NCBI GenBank assembly: GCA_948470755.1
Contig: CAOKPU010000008.1
Coordinates: 1-63,821 of the forward strand
DNA from: an uncultured Lachnospiraceae bacterium
Lineage (GTDB): Bacteria; Bacillota; Clostridia; Lachnospirales; Lachnospiraceae
Reading direction: 5' to 3'
Length of the DNA stretch: 63,821 nt
The position numbers were made by a program, and so were the translations under genes. Of this stretch, positions 9,196 through 49,712 are shown one piece after another. The notes beneath the pieces were generated by a model. It made no database searches and was not told the DNA's origin. It saw only the letters and a list, made by a program, of their open reading frames with translations. How positions within the stretch are numbered: the first letter of the stretch is position 1; each line of letters starts with the position of its first letter.

Positions 9196-9870
9196 TCACT
9201 TCGCTTCTATCTTCTCCCGGATCTGCTGCATCCTCCCATCCAACTGCGAAATCAGCTCCGCACAATAAAACAGTTCATCCGATATGCTCTCCGCCTTTTT
9301 AATATGCTTTTTATACTTCAATTTATGTTCCAGGCTGGCCCAGAAATCCATCGCTATCGTACGAAACTGCACTTCCACCCGGACCGCCCTTTTTTCATCC
9401 GTCAGGAAGATCGGCACTTCTATAATAAGATGGAGGCTTCTGTAACCGTTCGGTTTGGGGTTTTTTATGTAATCTTTTTTGGATACCAAGGTGATATCGT
9501 CCTGCGCCAGAAGACAGTCCGCCAGCATATAAATATCATCGGGAAATGAACAAATCACGCGGATCCCTGCAATATCGTTCAGATTTTTTTCCGCATTTTC
9601 GATGGTCAGCTTCAACCTGTTCCTTTCCAGCTTTTCCCTGATGCTTTGAGGGGACTTTATCCTGCACTTTATCGTTTCAAAAGGATTCCTCCTGTTCTGA
9701 AGGGAAAGCTCCGCATTCAGGACGTCCAGTTTTGTTTTGACTTCCAACATAGCGCATTGGTACTGCATGATCATCCGCCGGAACCGGTCCACCTCCCCTC
9801 CTTCCCTGAAAGCTTCCTCTATCACTTTCCAGTCCTGGATATCCTCCGTATCGCTTATATTTTTTTCCAT
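9196..9870 (-). CDS. small alarmone synthetase (RelQ/SAS1-like)
   Basis: A 224-aa single-domain GTP pyrophosphokinase that makes (p)ppGpp from ATP and GTP/GDP. Synthetase motifs are present: RIKSPQSIREKL (nucleotide binding, about 69-80), DIAGIRVICSF (acidic metal site), KPNGYRSLHL (G loop) and EVQFRTIAMDFWASLEHK (catalytic Glu and Gln). There is no HD hydrolase, TGS or ACT domain, so it is not a long RelA/SpoT. The helical C-terminus suits the tetramerising tail of RelQ enzymes. The ribosome binding site is weak (AAAGGG, 13 nt away). Confidence 0.92.
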   Translation of the reverse strand: MEKNISDTEDIQDWKVIEEAFREGGEVDRFRRMIMQYQCAMLEVKTKLDVLNAELSLQNRRNPFETIKCRIKSPQSIREKLERNRLKLTIENAEKNLNDIAGIRVICSFPDDIYMLADCLLAQDDITLVSKKDYIKNPKPNGYRSLHLIIEVPIFLTDEKRAVRVEVQFRTIAMDFWASLEHKLKYKKHIKKAESISDELFYCAELISQLDGRMQQIREKIEAK

Positions 9871-43007: not shown

Positions 43008-43037
43008 CGTAAATGCCCGTATTTTTGGCATTCTTCT

Positions 43038-43122
43038 GCGTGAAGAGCGGTTCGCTGCGCGAACCCTAGATGTTCTTGGCGAAACAGCCGCTGCTGTTGA
43101 GCCTTAGAACTTCTCTTCACGC
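43038..43122 (-). ncRNA. three-way-junction 3' element, copy 1
   Basis: It begins at the last base of the glycosyltransferase stop codon. Outer stem P1: GCGTGAAGAG (43038-43047) with CTCTTCACGC (43113-43122). P2: GGTTCG/CGAACC (43049-43065). P3 (43072-43110): GTTCT/AGAAC, GGC/GCC, a tandem GA/GA mismatch, and AACAGC/GCTGTT closed by CGCT. Related copies lie at 45968 and 47963. There is no T run, so it is not a plain terminator. Confidence 0.75.
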
Positions 43123-44147
43123 TAATTAAATTTGAAGAACCTCTGGCAGATCCGGTATCCTTCGATGGAGATCTTCCTTCCCCCTTTTCCGGGTAAATTC
43201 ATGGAACTCCCTAAAATCCCATACCTTAAACGCATATACAGCATCTTATCCTTTTGTTTGATATATTTCCAAAGCTCCTTTTTTTTCTGCAAATGCTCTT
43301 CCGTCCCCCCTCGGATGAGAAGCACAGAGGAAACCGTAGTAATGATTTCGAGGTAATTCACCATATAATTACGCATCTTGCGGTTTCCTTTCATCTTCTG
43401 TTTATTTTCCACCATATAATCCACCATGATCTTATTGACCTTAATCTGCTGGTCAATCCTGGAAATCATGATTGTCTCATTTACGGACTGGCCCTCCCGC
43501 CCGATATAATAACGGTAAAAATTCACATCCATATAATACATGTTTTTTACATAAAGCAATGGTTCAAATACAAATAGATTATCCACATAAAATGTATTTT
43601 CCGGCAGTTTCAGCCCGCACTCCCGCAGAAGCTTTGTCCTGAAAATCACGGAATGCATCAATATATACTGCCCCTTTCGGAAATGCTTTACCTGTTTCCA
43701 CGTGAAGATCTCATCTTTCGGCAGGGCATGGCGGTAACGCATCACTTTATTTTTCTTTTCCCCCTGCTTTTCATATACAAAATTGCTTACCAGCATATCC
43801 AGCGTCTTTCCGTCCCCGGCCGCTTCCTTAAGAAGTCCCAGTATTTTCCGGTATTCGCTTTCTTTCACCCAGTCATCACTGTCCACCACTTTAAAAAACA
43901 GCCCGGAAGCATTCTCCATTCCGGTATTTACCGCCGACCCATGGCCGCCGTTTTCCTTATGGATAACTTTTACAATAGACGGATATTCCTCCGCATACTT
44001 GTCCGCAATTTCCGCCGTATTGTCCACAGACCCATCATCCACTATGATCAGCTCCACATCCTCCCCTCCGGTCAACAGGGACTCAATACATTTTTCCATA
44101 TAATCTTCTGAATTGTAGCATGGTATTGTTACGGTTAATAATTTCAT
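43122..44147 (-). CDS. family 2 glycosyltransferase
   Basis: A 341-aa GT-A transferase, probably cytosolic or membrane-associated, that adds a sugar to a cell-envelope acceptor. The N-terminus has TIPCYNSEDYMEKCIESLL, the nucleotide-binding VDDGSVDNTAEIA and ENGGHGSAVNTGMENA. The metal-binding DxD region reads VVDSDDWVK. No membrane helix is obvious. Its ATG overlaps the SfsA-MutY stop by four bases (ATGA). Confidence 0.9.
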   Translation of the reverse strand: MKLLTVTIPCYNSEDYMEKCIESLLTGGEDVELIIVDDGSVDNTAEIADKYAEEYPSIVKVIHKENGGHGSAVNTGMENASGLFFKVVDSDDWVKESEYRKILGLLKEAAGDGKTLDMLVSNFVYEKQGEKKNKVMRYRHALPKDEIFTWKQVKHFRKGQYILMHSVIFRTKLLRECGLKLPENTFYVDNLFVFEPLLYVKNMYYMDVNFYRYYIGREGQSVNETIMISRIDQQIKVNKIMVDYMVENKQKMKGNRKMRNYMVNYLEIITTVSSVLLIRGGTEEHLQKKKELWKYIKQKDKMLYMRLRYGILGSSMNLPGKGGRKISIEGYRICQRFFKFN

Positions 44148-45919
44148 TGTTTTTCCACTCCTAGTTGAATATCCAGATATTTCGCATACAACGCATATGC
44201 AGAGGGTATTGGGCAGCGTTCCCTTGCTTCATCTTTGTCAATGAAAATCCAATCTTGTAAAAAACCCCCCTTTTGGGGCCGTTCCAATTCATCCACCCGT
44301 ACCGCGTACCCCGACATATGCCATTCTTTATGGGAAAAAATATGTTTCGCATCCCCAATATGCTTTATATGAAGCACCTTCAACCCCATCCTGCGCAAAG
44401 ACGCAAGCACTTCATCCCCCGTCAACCGGCCCTCCAGCGCCGGGAATTCATACATTCCTGCCAACAACCCCTTTGGGGGCCGTTTCCGGAAAGCGGCTTT
44501 TTCTTCGTCACGGATAACAAGTATTGTTTTCTCTTCGATTTTTCTTGCCTTTTTTGCCTTCTTTTTTGGGAATTGAGCCGCCTGCCCCAGAAGATGCGCC
44601 CGACAGAATGCTCCCCATGGGCATTCCCCGCATCTCGGCTCCCCATTGGGAAGGCAAACCACAGCCCCCAGCTCCATCAATGCCTGATTAAAATCACCGG
44701 GCCTTGTTTCCGGTATAATCGCTGCCAGTTCCCTTTCTACTCTCGCCTTTGTTTTTTGAGATAAGATATCCTCCCCATCCATCCGCAGCCGCGAAAGCAC
44801 CCTAAGCACATTCCCGTCCACGGCAGGCACTGCTTTTCCATAAGCAATGGACGCGATGGCGCCAGCCGTATAACTGCCGATACCCGGCAATCTTACTAAC
44901 TCTTCGTATTCCGAAGGCATCCTTCCCCCGTATTCCTCCATAATCACTTTTGCCGCCTTCTGCAGATTCCTAACCCGGTTATAATATCCCAGCCCTTCCC
45001 ATAATTTGACCAGCCGATCCTCTTCCATCCCGGCCAGCGTACGGATATCCGGCACGCTTTTCAGAAAGCGGTCGAAATAAGGCTTGACCGCCTCCACTCT
45101 GGTCTGCTGCAACATGATTTCCGACAGCCACACATAATAAGGCCGGGGATCCTCCCTCCACGGCAGTATGCGCCTGCCTTTGTCATACCACTCAAGAAGA
45201 GGGGCCGCAATCCGTCCCATCAACGGCTGTCCTTCTTTTTCCAGCCTTACCGGTACCGGATCTCTTATCTCCATAGAATCCGGCGTTACCTCACAATCGT
45301 ATGCAAGGATCACCACCCCTTCCGCCTTCGCCTTTCTAAGCATCTGTGCAAAAGCCGGATGGGTTTCTTCATTAGGCGAAAAAAAAGCGGCCCCTTTCAT
45401 TTGGATGACAAACAGTATATAAGCTTTATAGCCCTCCTTTATCGACTCCATCAGTTCTTCCACATGTTTCAGGGCCCGTTCGGACGGGGCGTCCGGAAAA
45501 TATGCCCCCATCTCCCTCTCCAGAGTCACTCCTTTTACTTCCAGAAAGATCTTTTCGTTTTCTGTCTCCACATAAAAATCGAACCGGGAATTTTTATAAG
45601 TTTTCTCGGCCCGGATCTCCTTTAACGATGGGAATAGCCCTTTTTTCAAAAGCCATTCCCCGACTGCCTGATTGGGGGCATTGGAATCCATATTGATAAG
45701 GCGCTCCCCCTTTTTGACCGCCACGAGATCATAAGCGGTAGCCCTTCCTTCATTTGCCGCCTTTTCCAGATATACGACCGCTCCGGGTACAAGAAGCTCC
45801 CTGCATCTTCCGGTATTCTTCACATGCGCTTTTTCCTGCTTGCCGCCGATATCGACATAAGCCGCAAAACGGTTCGGCCTGCTTAAAAATCTTCCTTCTA
45901 TGATCTGTCCGTATTCCAT
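44144..45919 (-). CDS. SfsA nuclease-MutY adenine glycosylase fusion
   Basis: A 591-aa single frame holding two normally separate proteins. Residues 1-225 are SfsA-like: KAHVKNTGRCRELLVPGA and the nuclease motif SRFDFYV...IFLEVKG. Residues 230-590 are a complete MutY that removes A from 8-oxoG:A pairs: catalytic Glu in SEIMLQQT, LPGIGSYTAGAIA, Asp in AVDGNVLRVLSR, the iron-sulphur Cys set CLPNGEPRCGECPWGAFC, and a C-terminal 8-oxoG recognition domain (HIFSHKEWHMSGY). All key residues are present in both halves. The start is the Met of MEYGQ, by SfsA alignment. Confidence 0.93.
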   Translation of the reverse strand: MEYGQIIEGRFLSRPNRFAAYVDIGGKQEKAHVKNTGRCRELLVPGAVVYLEKAANEGRATAYDLVAVKKGERLINMDSNAPNQAVGEWLLKKGLFPSLKEIRAEKTYKNSRFDFYVETENEKIFLEVKGVTLEREMGAYFPDAPSERALKHVEELMESIKEGYKAYILFVIQMKGAAFFSPNEETHPAFAQMLRKAKAEGVVILAYDCEVTPDSMEIRDPVPVRLEKEGQPLMGRIAAPLLEWYDKGRRILPWREDPRPYYVWLSEIMLQQTRVEAVKPYFDRFLKSVPDIRTLAGMEEDRLVKLWEGLGYYNRVRNLQKAAKVIMEEYGGRMPSEYEELVRLPGIGSYTAGAIASIAYGKAVPAVDGNVLRVLSRLRMDGEDILSQKTKARVERELAAIIPETRPGDFNQALMELGAVVCLPNGEPRCGECPWGAFCRAHLLGQAAQFPKKKAKKARKIEEKTILVIRDEEKAAFRKRPPKGLLAGMYEFPALEGRLTGDEVLASLRRMGLKVLHIKHIGDAKHIFSHKEWHMSGYAVRVDELERPQKGGFLQDWIFIDKDEARERCPIPSAYALYAKYLDIQLGVEKQ

Positions 45920-45967
45920 CGTCCCACTAACCCTCCATGCCGCCCTTCGCGGAATCTCAAAGCAGAA

Positions 45968-46031
45968 GCGTGAAGGTAATGTCCTTGGCGGGACATCCAT
46001 TGCCTTTGAGCCTTAGGACTTCCCTTCACGC
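45968..46031 (-). ncRNA. three-way-junction 3' element, copy 2 (short form)
   Basis: It begins at the DUF1653-gene stop codon. P1: GCGTGAAGG/CCTTCACGC, extendable by two pairs into the stop codon itself. P2 is absent, replaced by TAAT. P3: GTCCT/AGGAC and GGC/GCC at the same spacing as copy 1, with T-A changed to C-G. It lies between the DUF1653 gene and the SfsA-MutY gene. Confidence 0.7.
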
Positions 46032-46568
46032 TTACCGCAGCCTATTACATTCAAACCTTTCCATCAGGGCCAGGCAGCTTCTGAATTCCGCATACCGTTC
46101 CTCGATATTTCCCGGCTTAACTTCTATGTCCATGGCTGTTGACATAATATTTATCATATCATCGGTAATTTTATGATGAAGGCCGGAAAGAATATTCAAA
46201 CGCTCTTCATGGCTGGATGCATCCAAAAATCCCATTACCATCGGGTCGATATGCACTGCCTCTTCTTCACTTTGTTCTTCTTTTGCATCCCCATCCTTAT
46301 CCGGCCCGTCTTCCGCTTCATTTTTTGTGATTTCCCCCTTATCCAACCGCTCAAAACGATATTCCTGTCTTGCTTTAGGATATTTTTCCCTATCAATTTT
46401 TTCCAAAAACATAGACAAGGGACGCACGTAAGTCTCAAAGCTGCCATAAAGAGCCTGATAAACCACCATCGCTTCCCCTGTTTCCGAATGTTGCGCTACT
46501 GTTACAATCTGATAAAGCCCCCCTTTAAAATGTCTGTAAATTTCCTGTGGAACAGGCAGTTTCCGCAT
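46032..46568 (-). CDS. DUF1653 domain protein
   Basis: A 178-aa protein. Residues 1-65 are a DUF1653 domain (YRHFKGGLYQIVTVAQHSETG and VYQALYGSFETYVRPLSMFLEKID); these domains are small beta-rich modules of unknown role, often in nucleotide-related contexts. The middle (85-108) is acidic and low in complexity, and the C-terminal 70 residues are helical and unrecognised. It is the first gene of an operon with SfsA-MutY and the glycosyltransferase. GGGAGG lies 8 nt before the ATG. Confidence 0.82.
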   Translation of the reverse strand: MRKLPVPQEIYRHFKGGLYQIVTVAQHSETGEAMVVYQALYGSFETYVRPLSMFLEKIDREKYPKARQEYRFERLDKGEITKNEAEDGPDKDGDAKEEQSEEEAVHIDPMVMGFLDASSHEERLNILSGLHHKITDDMINIMSTAMDIEVKPGNIEERYAEFRSCLALMERFECNRLR

Positions 46569-46648
46569 ATAAAATACCTCCCGTTAATACGGACTTTAAA
46601 ATCCGCCTTATACTTTGCCCTGGCTGTGCGGCAAAATAATTATTTATT

Positions 46649-46677
46649 ATTATAATACCCACGTACCACGTTGTCAT
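46649..46677 (-). promoter_or_regulatory. promoter of the DUF1653-SfsA/MutY-GT operon
   Basis: ATGACA (46672-46677) and TATAAT (46649-46654) on the minus strand with a 17-nt spacer, about 80 nt before the DUF1653 start. Confidence 0.75.
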
Positions 46678-46711
46678 GCCTTTCTTTCTTAAGCATTTAT
46701 TAAAACAAGCC

Positions 46712-47689
46712 TTATCGGCTATAACGCACTATTAAAAGCTCCACGCTCATGATATCATTCATCCTCCCCGTCTTTACGGATTCTTCCGCTTCGATACATG
46801 CTTCCAAAGCCTCGCGCAGATAGGGGCCTGGGAATTTGGCGGCCTGAGCAATGTATTTTCCTGCAATGAACGGGGAAAGCCCTATTTTTGCGCCGATTAT
46901 TTTATTGTCATAGCCCTTTGCCTTCAATTCCTTGACTTGCATCAACATATTAAACTGCCTTGTAATCAGGAAAAGTATGCGCATAGCCGGTTCTTTTAAC
47001 GCCAGAAGGTCATAATACAAATCCAATGCTTTTTTCTGTTGTTTATCCGCAATGGCATTGATCATATCAAAAATATGGCTGCTGACCCTTTTCGTGCAGA
47101 TCTCTTCAATATCCTGTTCCAGAACGGCATCCTTTCCCAGACAGTAACACATTAATTTTTCCAGCTCTTTACGAATATTCTCCATATCCGTTCCCGTCTT
47201 TTCCAGAAAATAGTTAAGCGCCGGCCCGGTAATCTGTTTCCCCTCTTTTTTTATCATTCCCAGAATCCACTTTTTTAAAGTAGCTTCGCCCTGCACGGGA
47301 AATTCCACTACCGTCCCTTTCAAAGATGCTATTTTAAACAGTTTGCTGCGTCTGTCCACTTCCGTCTCCACAAAAATAAAATATGCGCTTTGTGCAGGAG
47401 CGGATAAATATTCCGCCAACTGCTCCCCGCCATGCTTAAAAAGGCCGCTGTCTTCTAAGATGATCACTCTTTTATCCGCAAAAAAAGGAAGCGTTTCCGC
47501 AAGGTCGATCACGGCTCCCTGAGAAATGCCTTTTCCTTCAAAATAACTATAATTCATCGTATCCCCGGCTTCTGTCATAGCCGCCCTTAATCTGTCCCTA
47601 TACTGCTTTCGCAGATAGGCTTCTTCGCCGTAAAGAAGATAAATCTGCCTGAACTCCCCGCTTTTAATATCCCCGTTAATCCTCTGCAT
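46712..47689 (-). CDS. holA: DNA polymerase III delta subunit
   Basis: The 325-aa clamp-loader subunit that opens the beta clamp. The family pattern is clear: IYLLYGEEAYLRKQYRDRL at the N-terminus, LPFFADKRVIILEDSGLF, then domains with GTDMENIRKELEKLMCYC and the C-terminal FITRQFNMLMQVKELKAKGYDNKIIGAKIGL-type helices. Like other delta subunits it lacks a functional Walker A motif. Length is typical. Confidence 0.95.
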   Translation of the reverse strand: MQRINGDIKSGEFRQIYLLYGEEAYLRKQYRDRLRAAMTEAGDTMNYSYFEGKGISQGAVIDLAETLPFFADKRVIILEDSGLFKHGGEQLAEYLSAPAQSAYFIFVETEVDRRSKLFKIASLKGTVVEFPVQGEATLKKWILGMIKKEGKQITGPALNYFLEKTGTDMENIRKELEKLMCYCLGKDAVLEQDIEEICTKRVSSHIFDMINAIADKQQKKALDLYYDLLALKEPAMRILFLITRQFNMLMQVKELKAKGYDNKIIGAKIGLSPFIAGKYIAQAAKFPGPYLREALEACIEAEESVKTGRMNDIMSVELLIVRYSR

Positions 47690-47803
47690 CCTAACCCCCG
47701 TCCATTTCCCCGCCTTATTCTTTTCATTTGGATCTTACATTGTAAGGATAACATAACAGGAACCGGTATGGCAAGGAAAGCGTATCCGGAAGGGTTTATT
47801 TCA

Positions 47804-47851
47804 GAAAAAAACAGACCCGGGAACCCGTCTCTTTCCGATTCCTGGATCTGT
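47804..47851 (-). terminator. terminator of the unknown-gene pair
   Basis: On the minus strand ACAGATCCAGGAA pairs with TTCCCGGGTCTGT with two mismatches across a 15-nt loop, followed by TTTTTTTC. It ends the transcript from 48046-49712 and places the structured element inside that message. Confidence 0.8.
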
Positions 47852-47886
47852 ACAATTATCGTTTTTCACCAATTAAGCCGAAGCAT

Positions 47887-47901
47887 TCACACTAATCCCC
47901 A
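47887..47901. repeat. 15-bp direct repeat of the gene end
   Basis: TCACACTAATCCCCA is identical to 48041-48055, which contains the stop codon of the gene at 48046. The two copies flank the hairpin and the three-way-junction element and are 154 nt apart, which resembles a target-site duplication or a tandem duplication scar. Confidence 0.7.
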
Positions 47902-47962
47902 TGCCGCTGCTTCGCAGCGGCGCAAATCCTGATGAAAAATGCCGCATTCCAGGCATTTTTCG

Positions 47963-48046
47963 GTGTGAGAAAGACTTGCAAAGCAAGTCGTAGAACTTCT
48001 TGGCGAAACAGCCTCTGCTGCGAGTGGTTAGAAGCACTTCTCACAC
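47963..48046 (-). ncRNA. three-way-junction 3' element, copy 3
   Basis: P1: GTGTGAGAA/TTCTCACAC (47963-47971 with 48038-48046), reaching the last base of the stop codon. P2: GACTTGC-AAA-GCAAGTC (47973-47989). P3: CTTCT/AGAAG (47996-48000 with 48030-48034) and CAGC/GCTG with a CTCT loop. On the minus strand the 17-mer GGCTGTTTCGCCAAGAA is identical to copy 1. Confidence 0.75.
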
Positions 48047-48879
48047 TAATCCCCAAACAACTGTCCATAAACATCGCTAATGTCGGGAACTGTCCATTGC
48101 TTTTCTTCCGTTCCTTCCGTTTCCTCCTGTTCGTTTGGCAGCTTTGTTGGTTTGGAAAGTTCTATACTGGATGTGGATAATATCCCTCCCATCATCCTTG
48201 TCATCACCAATACCCTAGAGCCATCTGGATTTACGTGAATATCCGTCTCTACTTTGGATTCCTGCTCACTTTCCCCTTGTTCTTTTTTCCCGTTTTTTTC
48301 TTTCTCCTCTATCAAAACGCTTAAGAATTTTTTGTATTCCAGATAACCTTGCAGATTCCCGGCATTATATTGCATCTTCATGACTTTTTCTATGATTTCC
48401 AGCCAGTTCACTTTATCGGAGAGATTATCCGCCCCATATTCCCCTCGCATATCTTTGTGGTGTGCATGGGCCATCATAAATTTTGTCAGCGCATCCGGAC
48501 ATTTCCCGCTCTTACTTAGATAAGCGGAATATGCATACATCTCGACGGTATCGCAGTTGCCCGGATCCACTTTGGACACATCCACCATTCGTTCCGTCAC
48601 GTTGCCATTGGCATCCCATACTTTCACTTTATAAACAGGATGCGCCGGGTCAAAGCCCTTTGGCTGGTAAACCGTCATGGAAGTATGATCCGTCACACAA
48701 GCCCATGCTGTAACAACTTTGCCATCCTCCTCCGATTCCTCGCCGTGCAACACCATATCGTGATTCTGCGCTTTTACCGTCCACGACGTATCCGCCGTAT
48801 GGCCCGCCTGGCTTCTTTCTGCTTTTCCCGCTCTGTAATCCGCCGGATAACCGTTTACTCCAATTGCATTTACTCCCAT
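48046..48879 (-). CDS. unknown protein, MGVNAIGVNGYP type
   Basis: A 277-aa protein that I cannot assign. It has no signal peptide or membrane segment. The N-terminus is Gly/Asn-rich (MGVNAIGVNGYPADYRAGK). The middle has a TAWACVTDHTSMTVYQPKGFDP stretch followed by VYKVKVWDANGNVTERMVDVS, which looks like a beta-rich module with a metal-like DANGN turn. Residues 190-215 are Lys/Glu-rich. GGAGG lies 8 nt before this ATG. It follows another unknown gene with a 2-nt gap, so the two are probably made together. Confidence 0.75.
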   Translation of the reverse strand: MGVNAIGVNGYPADYRAGKAERSQAGHTADTSWTVKAQNHDMVLHGEESEEDGKVVTAWACVTDHTSMTVYQPKGFDPAHPVYKVKVWDANGNVTERMVDVSKVDPGNCDTVEMYAYSAYLSKSGKCPDALTKFMMAHAHHKDMRGEYGADNLSDKVNWLEIIEKVMKMQYNAGNLQGYLEYKKFLSVLIEEKEKNGKKEQGESEQESKVETDIHVNPDGSRVLVMTRMMGGILSTSSIELSKPTKLPNEQEETEGTEEKQWTVPDISDVYGQLFGD

Positions 48880-48881
48880 AT

Positions 48882-49712
48882 TCAGCCCCTCCATTTTCGG
48901 TTAGATGTATGTGTATGTGCAGCATTTTTCTTATTCTGCGCAGTGTTCCGGTATGCATTTACCATATTGTCCCATGTTCCCGGCAAAGCGGCATATCCTA
49001 AGCCCCCAAACCCTCCCGTCGATAATCCTGACCGTTCCAGAAGCCCATTCGCCAACAATATGGAGGAAGAAAGGTTTCCCTGGGATATACGATTTGCCGA
49101 CAACGCCCGATTGGCAAAGCTATTTTGCAAACCTATCATCCAGCTATAACTCTTAATTGGAATAGACGCGCCGTAACACTCTTCCTTCGTTCCTCCAATT
49201 ACCTGGTACTTTACATCCGGCCCATAAACAGATAGCTCCTTGGAAAAATCCTCTTGCAGCATACGGATCACCTCTTCCTCATAGGCCGGATCGCTTTTCA
49301 TCTTTTCAAATGCTTCTTCTTTAAAAATCAATATGCCCGAACGGCATAACCGCATACTGTCGCTGACCGGCAAGGCTGAGATTCTATTGCAAATCCACTG
49401 CTTGTACTCATCCAATGTCAATTCTTCCCTGGCCTTGTTCTTATCCACCTTATAATTCGTGCGATATGCCGGAGGATTGGACATTACCACATCTTCCCCC
49501 GCCGGGAATATTTCATTTTCTTTCCGCACCGCATCGTCCATGCATTCCTGAAAGGACGCCACTCTATCCTGTCCCGTCTCTATCCCGCTGCTTACTTTGC
49601 CGGCATCTGCTCTCACGGCCAGCCCTTTGTTACCATACCATTCTTCTTTATCCCGGCGGATCTCTGCAGCCTTATCCATCACCGCCATGCCGGAAACGGT
49701 CATATTCGCCAT
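48882..49712 (-). CDS. unknown protein paired with the downstream gene
   Basis: A 276-aa protein that I do not recognise. It shows no clear signal peptide. Residues 85-180 include LTLDEYKQWICNRISALPVSD and ILIFKEEAFEKMKSDPAYEEEVIRML, an alpha-helical segment, followed by YQVIGGTKEECYGASIPI. The C-terminus is Gly/Ser/Asn-rich and ends with a basic patch. AGGAG lies 6 nt before the ATG. It ends 2 nt before its partner's start codon. Confidence 0.75.
   Translation of the reverse strand: MANMTVSGMAVMDKAAEIRRDKEEWYGNKGLAVRADAGKVSSGIETGQDRVASFQECMDDAVRKENEIFPAGEDVVMSNPPAYRTNYKVDKNKAREELTLDEYKQWICNRISALPVSDSMRLCRSGILIFKEEAFEKMKSDPAYEEEVIRMLQEDFSKELSVYGPDVKYQVIGGTKEECYGASIPIKSYSWMIGLQNSFANRALSANRISQGNLSSSILLANGLLERSGLSTGGFGGLGYAALPGTWDNMVNAYRNTAQNKKNAAHTHTSNRKWRG

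Follow-up and report, generated by a model that had tools for sequence, protein, structure and literature searches.

The window analysed here is a 63,821-nucleotide (nt) stretch, contig CAOKPU010000008.1 of assembly GCA_948470755.1, from an uncultured Lachnospiraceae bacterium whose genome (G000) amounts to 3.0 Mb in 114 contigs and is 92.5% complete. Three related structured elements lie on its minus strand, each at the stop codon of a different gene, at the places where a preliminary description made from the letters alone had put them. Copies 1 and 3 have a TAG stop as their first 3 nt, in copy 1 that of a GT2 glycosyltransferase gene (43122-44147, minus strand) and in copy 3 that of a gene encoding 282 amino acids (aa) without a Pfam match (48046-48894, minus strand); copy 2 begins within the TAA stop of a DUF1653 gene (46032-46568, minus strand). 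When the window was searched with a covariance model and filters off, only these three were found at E < 0.01, and the next two matches had E = 0.23 and 0.45. The elements and their accompanying hairpins are as follows.

43036..43124, minus strand: element copy 1, 89 nt, P2-bearing subtype GGTTCGC; E 2.1e-30; stop offset 0
43049..43065, minus strand: P2 arm of copy 1, perfect palindrome GGTTCGC-GCA-GCGAACC, an exchangeable module
43012..43032 (limits approximate), minus strand: hairpin B after copy 1, AATGCC...GGCATT type, read from the sequence
45966..46033, minus strand: element copy 2, 68 nt, without P2; E 1.0e-7; stop offset -1
45920..45965, minus strand: tail of the copy-2 unit, hairpin D remnant and CATGGAGGG Shine-Dalgarno-like end, read from the sequence
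47961..48048, minus strand: element copy 3, 88 nt, P2 subtype GACTTGC; E 1.4e-24; stop offset 0
47973..47989, minus strand: P2 arm of copy 3, palindrome GACTTGC-TTT-GCAAGTC
47935..47960, minus strand: hairpin B after copy 3, AAAAATGCCTGGAATGCGGCATTTTT, read from the sequence
47887..47921, minus strand: hairpin D (GCCGCTGCGAAGCAGCGGC) and unit end ATGGGGATTAGTGTGA after copy 3, upstream of a holA-type gene

Hairpin B of copy 1 sits in the gap separating two convergent genes, and the tail of the copy-2 unit lies upstream of the ATG (45917-45919) of an open reading frame (ORF) with SfsA and MutY domains. On the gene strand, copies 1, 2 and 3 fold with z values of -5.5, -4.9 and -2.1 against dinucleotide shuffles, of which 0/200, 0/200 and 6/200 fold equally well; the plus strand folds as well as the gene strand. 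The alignment suggests a chimeric copy 3, in which the left half matches a 70-nt subtype and the right half the GACTTGC subtype, and its weak fold fits such an origin. The tandem GA/GA mismatch that had been described for copy 1 is present, by eye, on the plus strand only, and the gene strand reads UC/UC. The preliminary description knew of no family with this layout, and the window gave 0 matches to Rfam 15 at the gathering score, and none of five sub-threshold matches (E up to 5) overlaps an element. Searches of open-access literature listed no recognisable description of such a family, subscription papers being mostly outside their reach.

Element anatomy and copy number

The basic form of the element is a bulged hairpin of about 70 nt, with element lengths overall of roughly 62-107 nt. 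In the direction of the gene, 5' to 3', its layout is TA-G[8-bp outer stem][AGAANTTCT]AA[variable tip]A[AGAANTTCT]A(AG)[outer stem], and the stem usually opens with the G that ends the TAG stop. The 8-bp outer stem is kept in structure alone, and the 9-bp inner stem AGAANTTCT is conserved in sequence too. That pairing persists while the letters change had been proposed from the three copies, and it holds across many species. In 31 copies chosen for diversity (27 of the roughly 70-nt copies from named genomes and 4 with a shorter tip), two-sided changes are seen in 14/24 pairs, including all 8 of the outer stem, all cells of the outer stem pair, and the middle pair of the inner stem occurs as four pair types. 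The covariation score is 0.345 against 0.135 when shuffled, a value reached by 0/500 shuffles, and score, paired cells and double changes each exceed 500/500 shuffles; the sample is nevertheless biased toward paired copies, since the pattern or model that retrieved all of them presupposed this same layout.

The three-way junction had been taken as the hallmark of these elements. However, 26/90 copies of this genome measure 66-72 nt and 61/88 of the named-genome copies read measure 68-71 nt, which is too short for P2, so that the junction is not the basic form. It arises when an optional hairpin, P2, sits in the 3' bulge. In this genome P2 is one of three ready-made palindromes, of which P2a is found inside elements 25 times, P2b 9 times and P2c 10 times; these make up 25/26, 9/9 and 10/10 of their occurrences in 244 kb of this genome, shares that say little genome-wide because the 244 kb was fetched around elements. 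The difference between GGTTCG/CGAACC and GACTTGC/GCAAGTC, earlier read as compensatory change, is one between swapped palindrome modules, and P2 variation is block exchange of whole modules and not pair-by-pair compensation.

Downstream of the element follow hairpin B, sometimes hairpin C (9 cases), and then hairpin D with a CATGGRGG-like end. In this genome most elements are followed by hairpin B, and often by hairpin D with a Shine-Dalgarno-like end; within the 244 kb, 62/67 B-type matches lie at most 160 nt 3' of an element. Tandem units recur with a 154-nt period at some sites, and units of an array join as ...GGGGG-TTAG.... Coding potential was considered and, on reading by eye, rejected: one frame stays open in some units of this genome, but subtypes that differ in length by 1 nt (CTCAACAGC vs CTCACAGC) break it.

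Copy 1 gave 52 blastn matches in its own genome at E up to 10, and R1, a covariance model built from 13 P2-bearing copies, gave 113 at E up to 1. Ninety of the latter, in 71 arrays, were kept for work on context; 23 were set aside as weak matches, as antisense shadows cast by palindromes or as copies left incomplete by a contig end. The 90 copies comprise 65 distinct sequences, one 70-mer being identical at 10 places; identical copies stand behind unrelated genes, and some copies form tandem arrays. In the genus, R1 matched in 13/16 genomes with the own genome counted (36 matches in G004, at least 55 in G005, 28 in G015, and one or two in four genomes). R2, a model of the basic form, was searched family- and class-wide under stricter filters that lose weak matches; it matched in 15/150 sampled family genomes, one per genus and again with the own genome counted, and, of the 147 genomes sampled class-wide, in the own genome alone, the 146 others giving no match. 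A pattern scan of named genomes returned at least 104 stretches. Among the 80 listed, the title names Lachnospiraceae in 59, a genus in 10 (Roseburia, Lachnoclostridium, Blautia, Acetatifactor, Ruminococcus) and just 'bacterium' or 'Bacillota' in 11, which come from three assemblies.

A search of plasmids and phages with copy 1 returned no match, and the matches of a 14-mer scan of viral contigs were judged chance-like. The viral contig IMGVR_UViG_3300035424_000360 holds two element copies near its end (L389:9504-9591 and 9677-9746, minus strand) and also has a phage lysozyme as well as an ORF of 910 aa with a match to Pfam RdRP. Contigs C2, C10, C26, C57, C58, C72, C73, C80, C84 and C90 of G000 end inside or beside elements, and the repeat thus probably breaks the assembly.

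Seating on stop codons and sites in relatives

Seating was counted in a pooled set of 211 elements, made up of the first element of each of the 71 arrays of this genome, 88/99 named-locus matches (cut-off, antisense and a few further copies left out) and 52/64 others from three genus relatives and other genera (the same kinds and the viral contig left out). Where 330 nt or more were available upstream (197 elements), we took the longest ORF of at least 100 codons that runs in the direction of the element and ends at -120 to +40. Its end falls at offset -3, -1, 0 or +5 from the element start in 109/197, or in 109/149 having such an ORF, and further copies abutting stop codons are what the preliminary description had named as its own test. 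By set, the figures are 24/62 in this genome, 47/83 at named loci, 31/40 in genus relatives and 7/12 in other genera. On the opposite strand, offsets -3, -1 and 0 were found in 0/199. The stop at offset 0 is TAG in 46/52 over all sets; in this genome it is TAG in 13/13 vs 33/161 other ORFs of at least 200 codons (Fisher p 7e-9), stop usage being counted in this genome only, in sequence fetched around elements. The next gene is co-directional in 162/195, opposite in 18 and missing within 300 nt in 15, with 16 short-flank elements excluded and with figures that stand without a genome-wide baseline.

The opposite end of the unit can also be related to a gene. Among 60 distinct units with hairpin D, the start codon of an ORF of at least 60 codons is in range in 33 and lies exactly 12 nt on in 12/33. 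A ribosome-binding site at the unit end stands directly before the next ORF in 15 of the 158 elements or arrays that have a next ORF, and 7/15 of these also abut a stop. In such cases the unit end is the predicted ribosome-binding site of the next gene. A cassette running from stop to start is claimed for this subset only, because 15/158 have such a site; as a general rule it was rejected.

Since the elements are located after genes, they could be intrinsic transcription terminators or 3' end signals. A perfect-stem B hairpin is present in 112/195 elements, but its T-run is shorter than 4 in 87/112 and reaches 4 or more in 25/112, and the elements precede a co-directional gene in the large share given above. 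Judged from these letters, hairpin B is mostly not an intrinsic terminator, and we consider the terminator explanation very improbable for the family. The G005 loci differ from most others: their B hairpin (AAAAACGCC...GGCGTTTTT, e.g. at L175) reads like a bidirectional terminator, which speaks for that explanation.

Several orthologous genes end alike with no element behind them. In 14/15 genus relatives the DUF1653 gene has no element in the 140-190 nt downstream and its protein ends at the same place; G005 carries an element variant of its own after this gene, one residue later. The recF-type protein (so named by eye and from a sub-threshold Pfam match, the neighbouring gyrB-type gene by eye) has the same last residue in its closest relatives, and an element in the 200 nt after the gene was found in 0 of 12 relatives; in this genome a unit follows the recF-type stop, and the spacer to the gyrB-type gene still resembles that of the relatives. 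In 14 relatives the end of threonine synthase is shifted by no more than one or two residues, and none of them has an element in the 200 nt after the gene. A wider locus comparison gave 23 orthologue pairs, of which 14 were retained as empty sites. Five pairs were dropped where the orthologue is filled by a variant that the pattern missed (L407, L414 twice, L408, L180), three where elements of the orthologue lie slightly further on (L196, L207, L019), and one as a self-match (L439). At the empty sites the last residue is the same in 10/14 and within two in 13/14, with one off by eight at 52% identity. For 8 further queries all orthologues were filled, which suggests that some positions are shared or repeatedly hit. 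Identical copies at many places, together with several element-less orthologues with the same C-terminus, indicate that the element was added at native stop codons.

Copying, known repeats and a proposed effect

We conclude that these elements probably form a Lachnospiraceae family of non-autonomous, dispersed palindromic elements seated on stop codons between genes, resembling repetitive extragenic palindromes (REPs) and bacterial interspersed mosaic elements (BIMEs). The exact seating on stop codons is the novel part. A structured RNA selected on the sense strand is expected to tolerate G-U clearly more than A-C. In 3908 cells of the outer stem, the inner stem and hairpin B, we counted 61 G-U vs 45 A-C mismatches (p 0.14), in helices with at least 6/8 or 7/9 Watson-Crick pairs, a rule that limits either mismatch and that took in about 142, 183 and 125 of 195 distinct elements. 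These counts give no clear RNA signature, and pairing is almost purely Watson-Crick. This near-pure pairing, the block exchange of arms, the chimeric copy 3 and the identical copies argue for copying at the DNA level, which is compatible with an effect on the mRNA after insertion. The preliminary description had left the choice between a structured RNA and a structured mobile repeat; that the family is structured is borne out, and a mobile repeat fits at least as well as an RNA, given similar G-U and A-C counts, arm exchange and identical copies.

It is conceivable, with limited credence on our part, that the elements are instead a cis-acting structured RNA class selected at the stop codon, as a termination or reinitiation switch or a ribosome-coupled attenuator, and spread because it is useful. 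Orientation and locking to the stop codon, the two-sided changes in all 8 outer-stem pairs, and, among 60 units examined, the next start exactly 12 nt after hairpin D in 12 of the 33 that have one in range are consistent with this, as are the 8 queries with only filled orthologues, which place the element behind certain genes in two or more species, and the inner stem, where G-U exceeds A-C (23 vs 9, p 0.02). However, the outer stem has 20 G-U vs 24 A-C, identical copies stand behind unrelated genes and in tandem arrays, P2 arms are exchanged as blocks, and 135/150 sampled family members had no match under the strict filters.

Certain observations weigh against a mobile, stop-seated repeat. 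The mismatch counts, those of the inner stem above all, leave selection at the RNA level possible, and the number of further pair types in the covariation sample is no more than in shuffles, 297/500 of which reach it. Offset +5 occurs on the opposite strand in 16/199, as TGA is present on either strand of the palindromic foot, and some of the +5 cases may simply arise from a palindrome that has TGA at its two ends. The upstream ORF ends elsewhere in 40/197 and is lacking by the crude ORF rule in 48/197, and 2/14 'empty' orthologues (L287, L282) show different hairpins behind the stop. A target-site duplication could not be made out, the empty-site orthologues being too diverged for that. Finally, Y1_Tnp and RVT_1 had 0 matches in this genome, in a search that did not extend to other transposase and integrase families and that is no proof of absence because the genome is 92.5% complete; nor do Y1 counts track element counts in the 16 genus genomes (G011 has 10 Y1 and 0 elements). 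A REP-associated tyrosine transposase (RAYT) and a reverse transcriptase are therefore both unsupported as movers, the former by the missing matches and the missing relation to copy number, the latter by the missing matches.

The likeness to REPs and BIMEs is considerable. These are described as high-copy extragenic palindromes, mainly 3' of coding regions, clustered, plausibly transcribed and in some cases bulged (PMC3733652, PMC8266576). Our elements share the high copy number, the extragenic position and the location downstream of genes between co-directional or convergent ORFs (162/195 co-directional, 18 opposite). However, they measure roughly 62-107 nt instead of the 20-50 nt or so of REPs of the GTAG/CGTC type. 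The unpaired tag of that type is also lacking, since the foot reads GTAG in 25/211 only (TTAG in 76, ATAG in 34) and its last G is paired; CGTC at the other end was not counted. No RAYT or TnpA_REP of the GTAG class could be linked with them, this genome having no Y1_Tnp match. A classic REP mobilised by such a transposase is thus quite improbable; what speaks for it is that our elements, like REPs as described (PMC3733652, PMC8266576), are bulged, clustered extragenic palindromes 3' of coding regions. The foot that is often on the stop codon itself, the exchangeable P2 arm, the B and D hairpins and the end resembling a ribosome-binding site also set the family apart from REPs and BIMEs. In short, it works like a REP/BIME family and yet departs from REPs in three defining features, size, tag and transposase.

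Integron attC sites are single-strand hairpins recognised by shape, whose structure is kept as letters change and which lie just after an ORF. The shape kept while letters change and the position just after an ORF are shared by our elements; unlike attC, they come with no cassette genes, and their neighbours are ordinary-looking chromosomal genes (DUF1653, holA-type, threonine synthase, recF-type). Bacterial miniature inverted-repeat transposable elements (MITEs) such as ERIC, RUP and NEMIS are described as short dispersed repeats without coding function whose transcripts fold (PMC3733652), and to that extent our elements are alike. That the family is a MITE of a DDE transposon, or an integron-like attC cassette, is hardly tenable. 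Repeat units without a conserved ORF and arrays of consecutive units would suit it, but by eye whole-unit terminal inverted repeats were not seen (the foot is palindromic, the whole unit is not), no clear target duplication was found, and attC motifs were not seen by eye, with integrase genes not searched.

For the REP/BIME-like family that we favour, copies may spread at the DNA level through a helper acting on the folded single strand, and seating on the stop codon would reflect target preference, selection, or both. After insertion, the terminating ribosome would meet a stable hairpin ahead of it on the mRNA. The most likely effects would be that termination and recycling are tuned, that run-through and coupling to the next cistron are limited, and that the upstream message is shielded from 3' decay. 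We propose, by analogy with Escherichia coli REPs near stop codons, that the terminating ribosome and the decay of the message are both affected. Such REPs are reported to stall ribosomes when at most 15 nt from a stop codon, and to lower translation solely when near one (PMC12306157). We hold it doubtful that the family is a mobile one with true stop-codon targeting, in which a process finds the ends of ORFs, perhaps via the terminating ribosome or the mRNA, and installs an intercistronic cassette from the UAG stop through the hairpins and sometimes to the ribosome-binding site.

In many gut Lachnospiraceae, members of the family often occupy the very stop codon, and even a recF-type and a gyrB-type gene have one between them. 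The family poses the question of which machinery or selection sets repeats at the ends of ORFs with single-nucleotide precision, and it offers natural pairs with and without a hairpin at the stop codon for the study of termination, recycling and downstream initiation.

Three minor observations may be added. A smaller module that starts with TAG-NN-TGA and holds AAATCAGCTTGATAGCTGATTT has a similar layout of stop codon and bulged hairpin (e.g. C3:58291-58370 in G000), and its core occurs 10 times in the 244 kb. Some ORFs of G000 enter an element and end at its TGA in -LA or -LV (C1:49844, C11:38994, C11:54389, C18:6351, C34:20761). In the window, the 618-aa ORF at 44144-46000 (minus strand) combines SfsA domains with HhH-GPD and NUDIX_4 domains of MutY type and is an apparent SfsA-MutY fusion.

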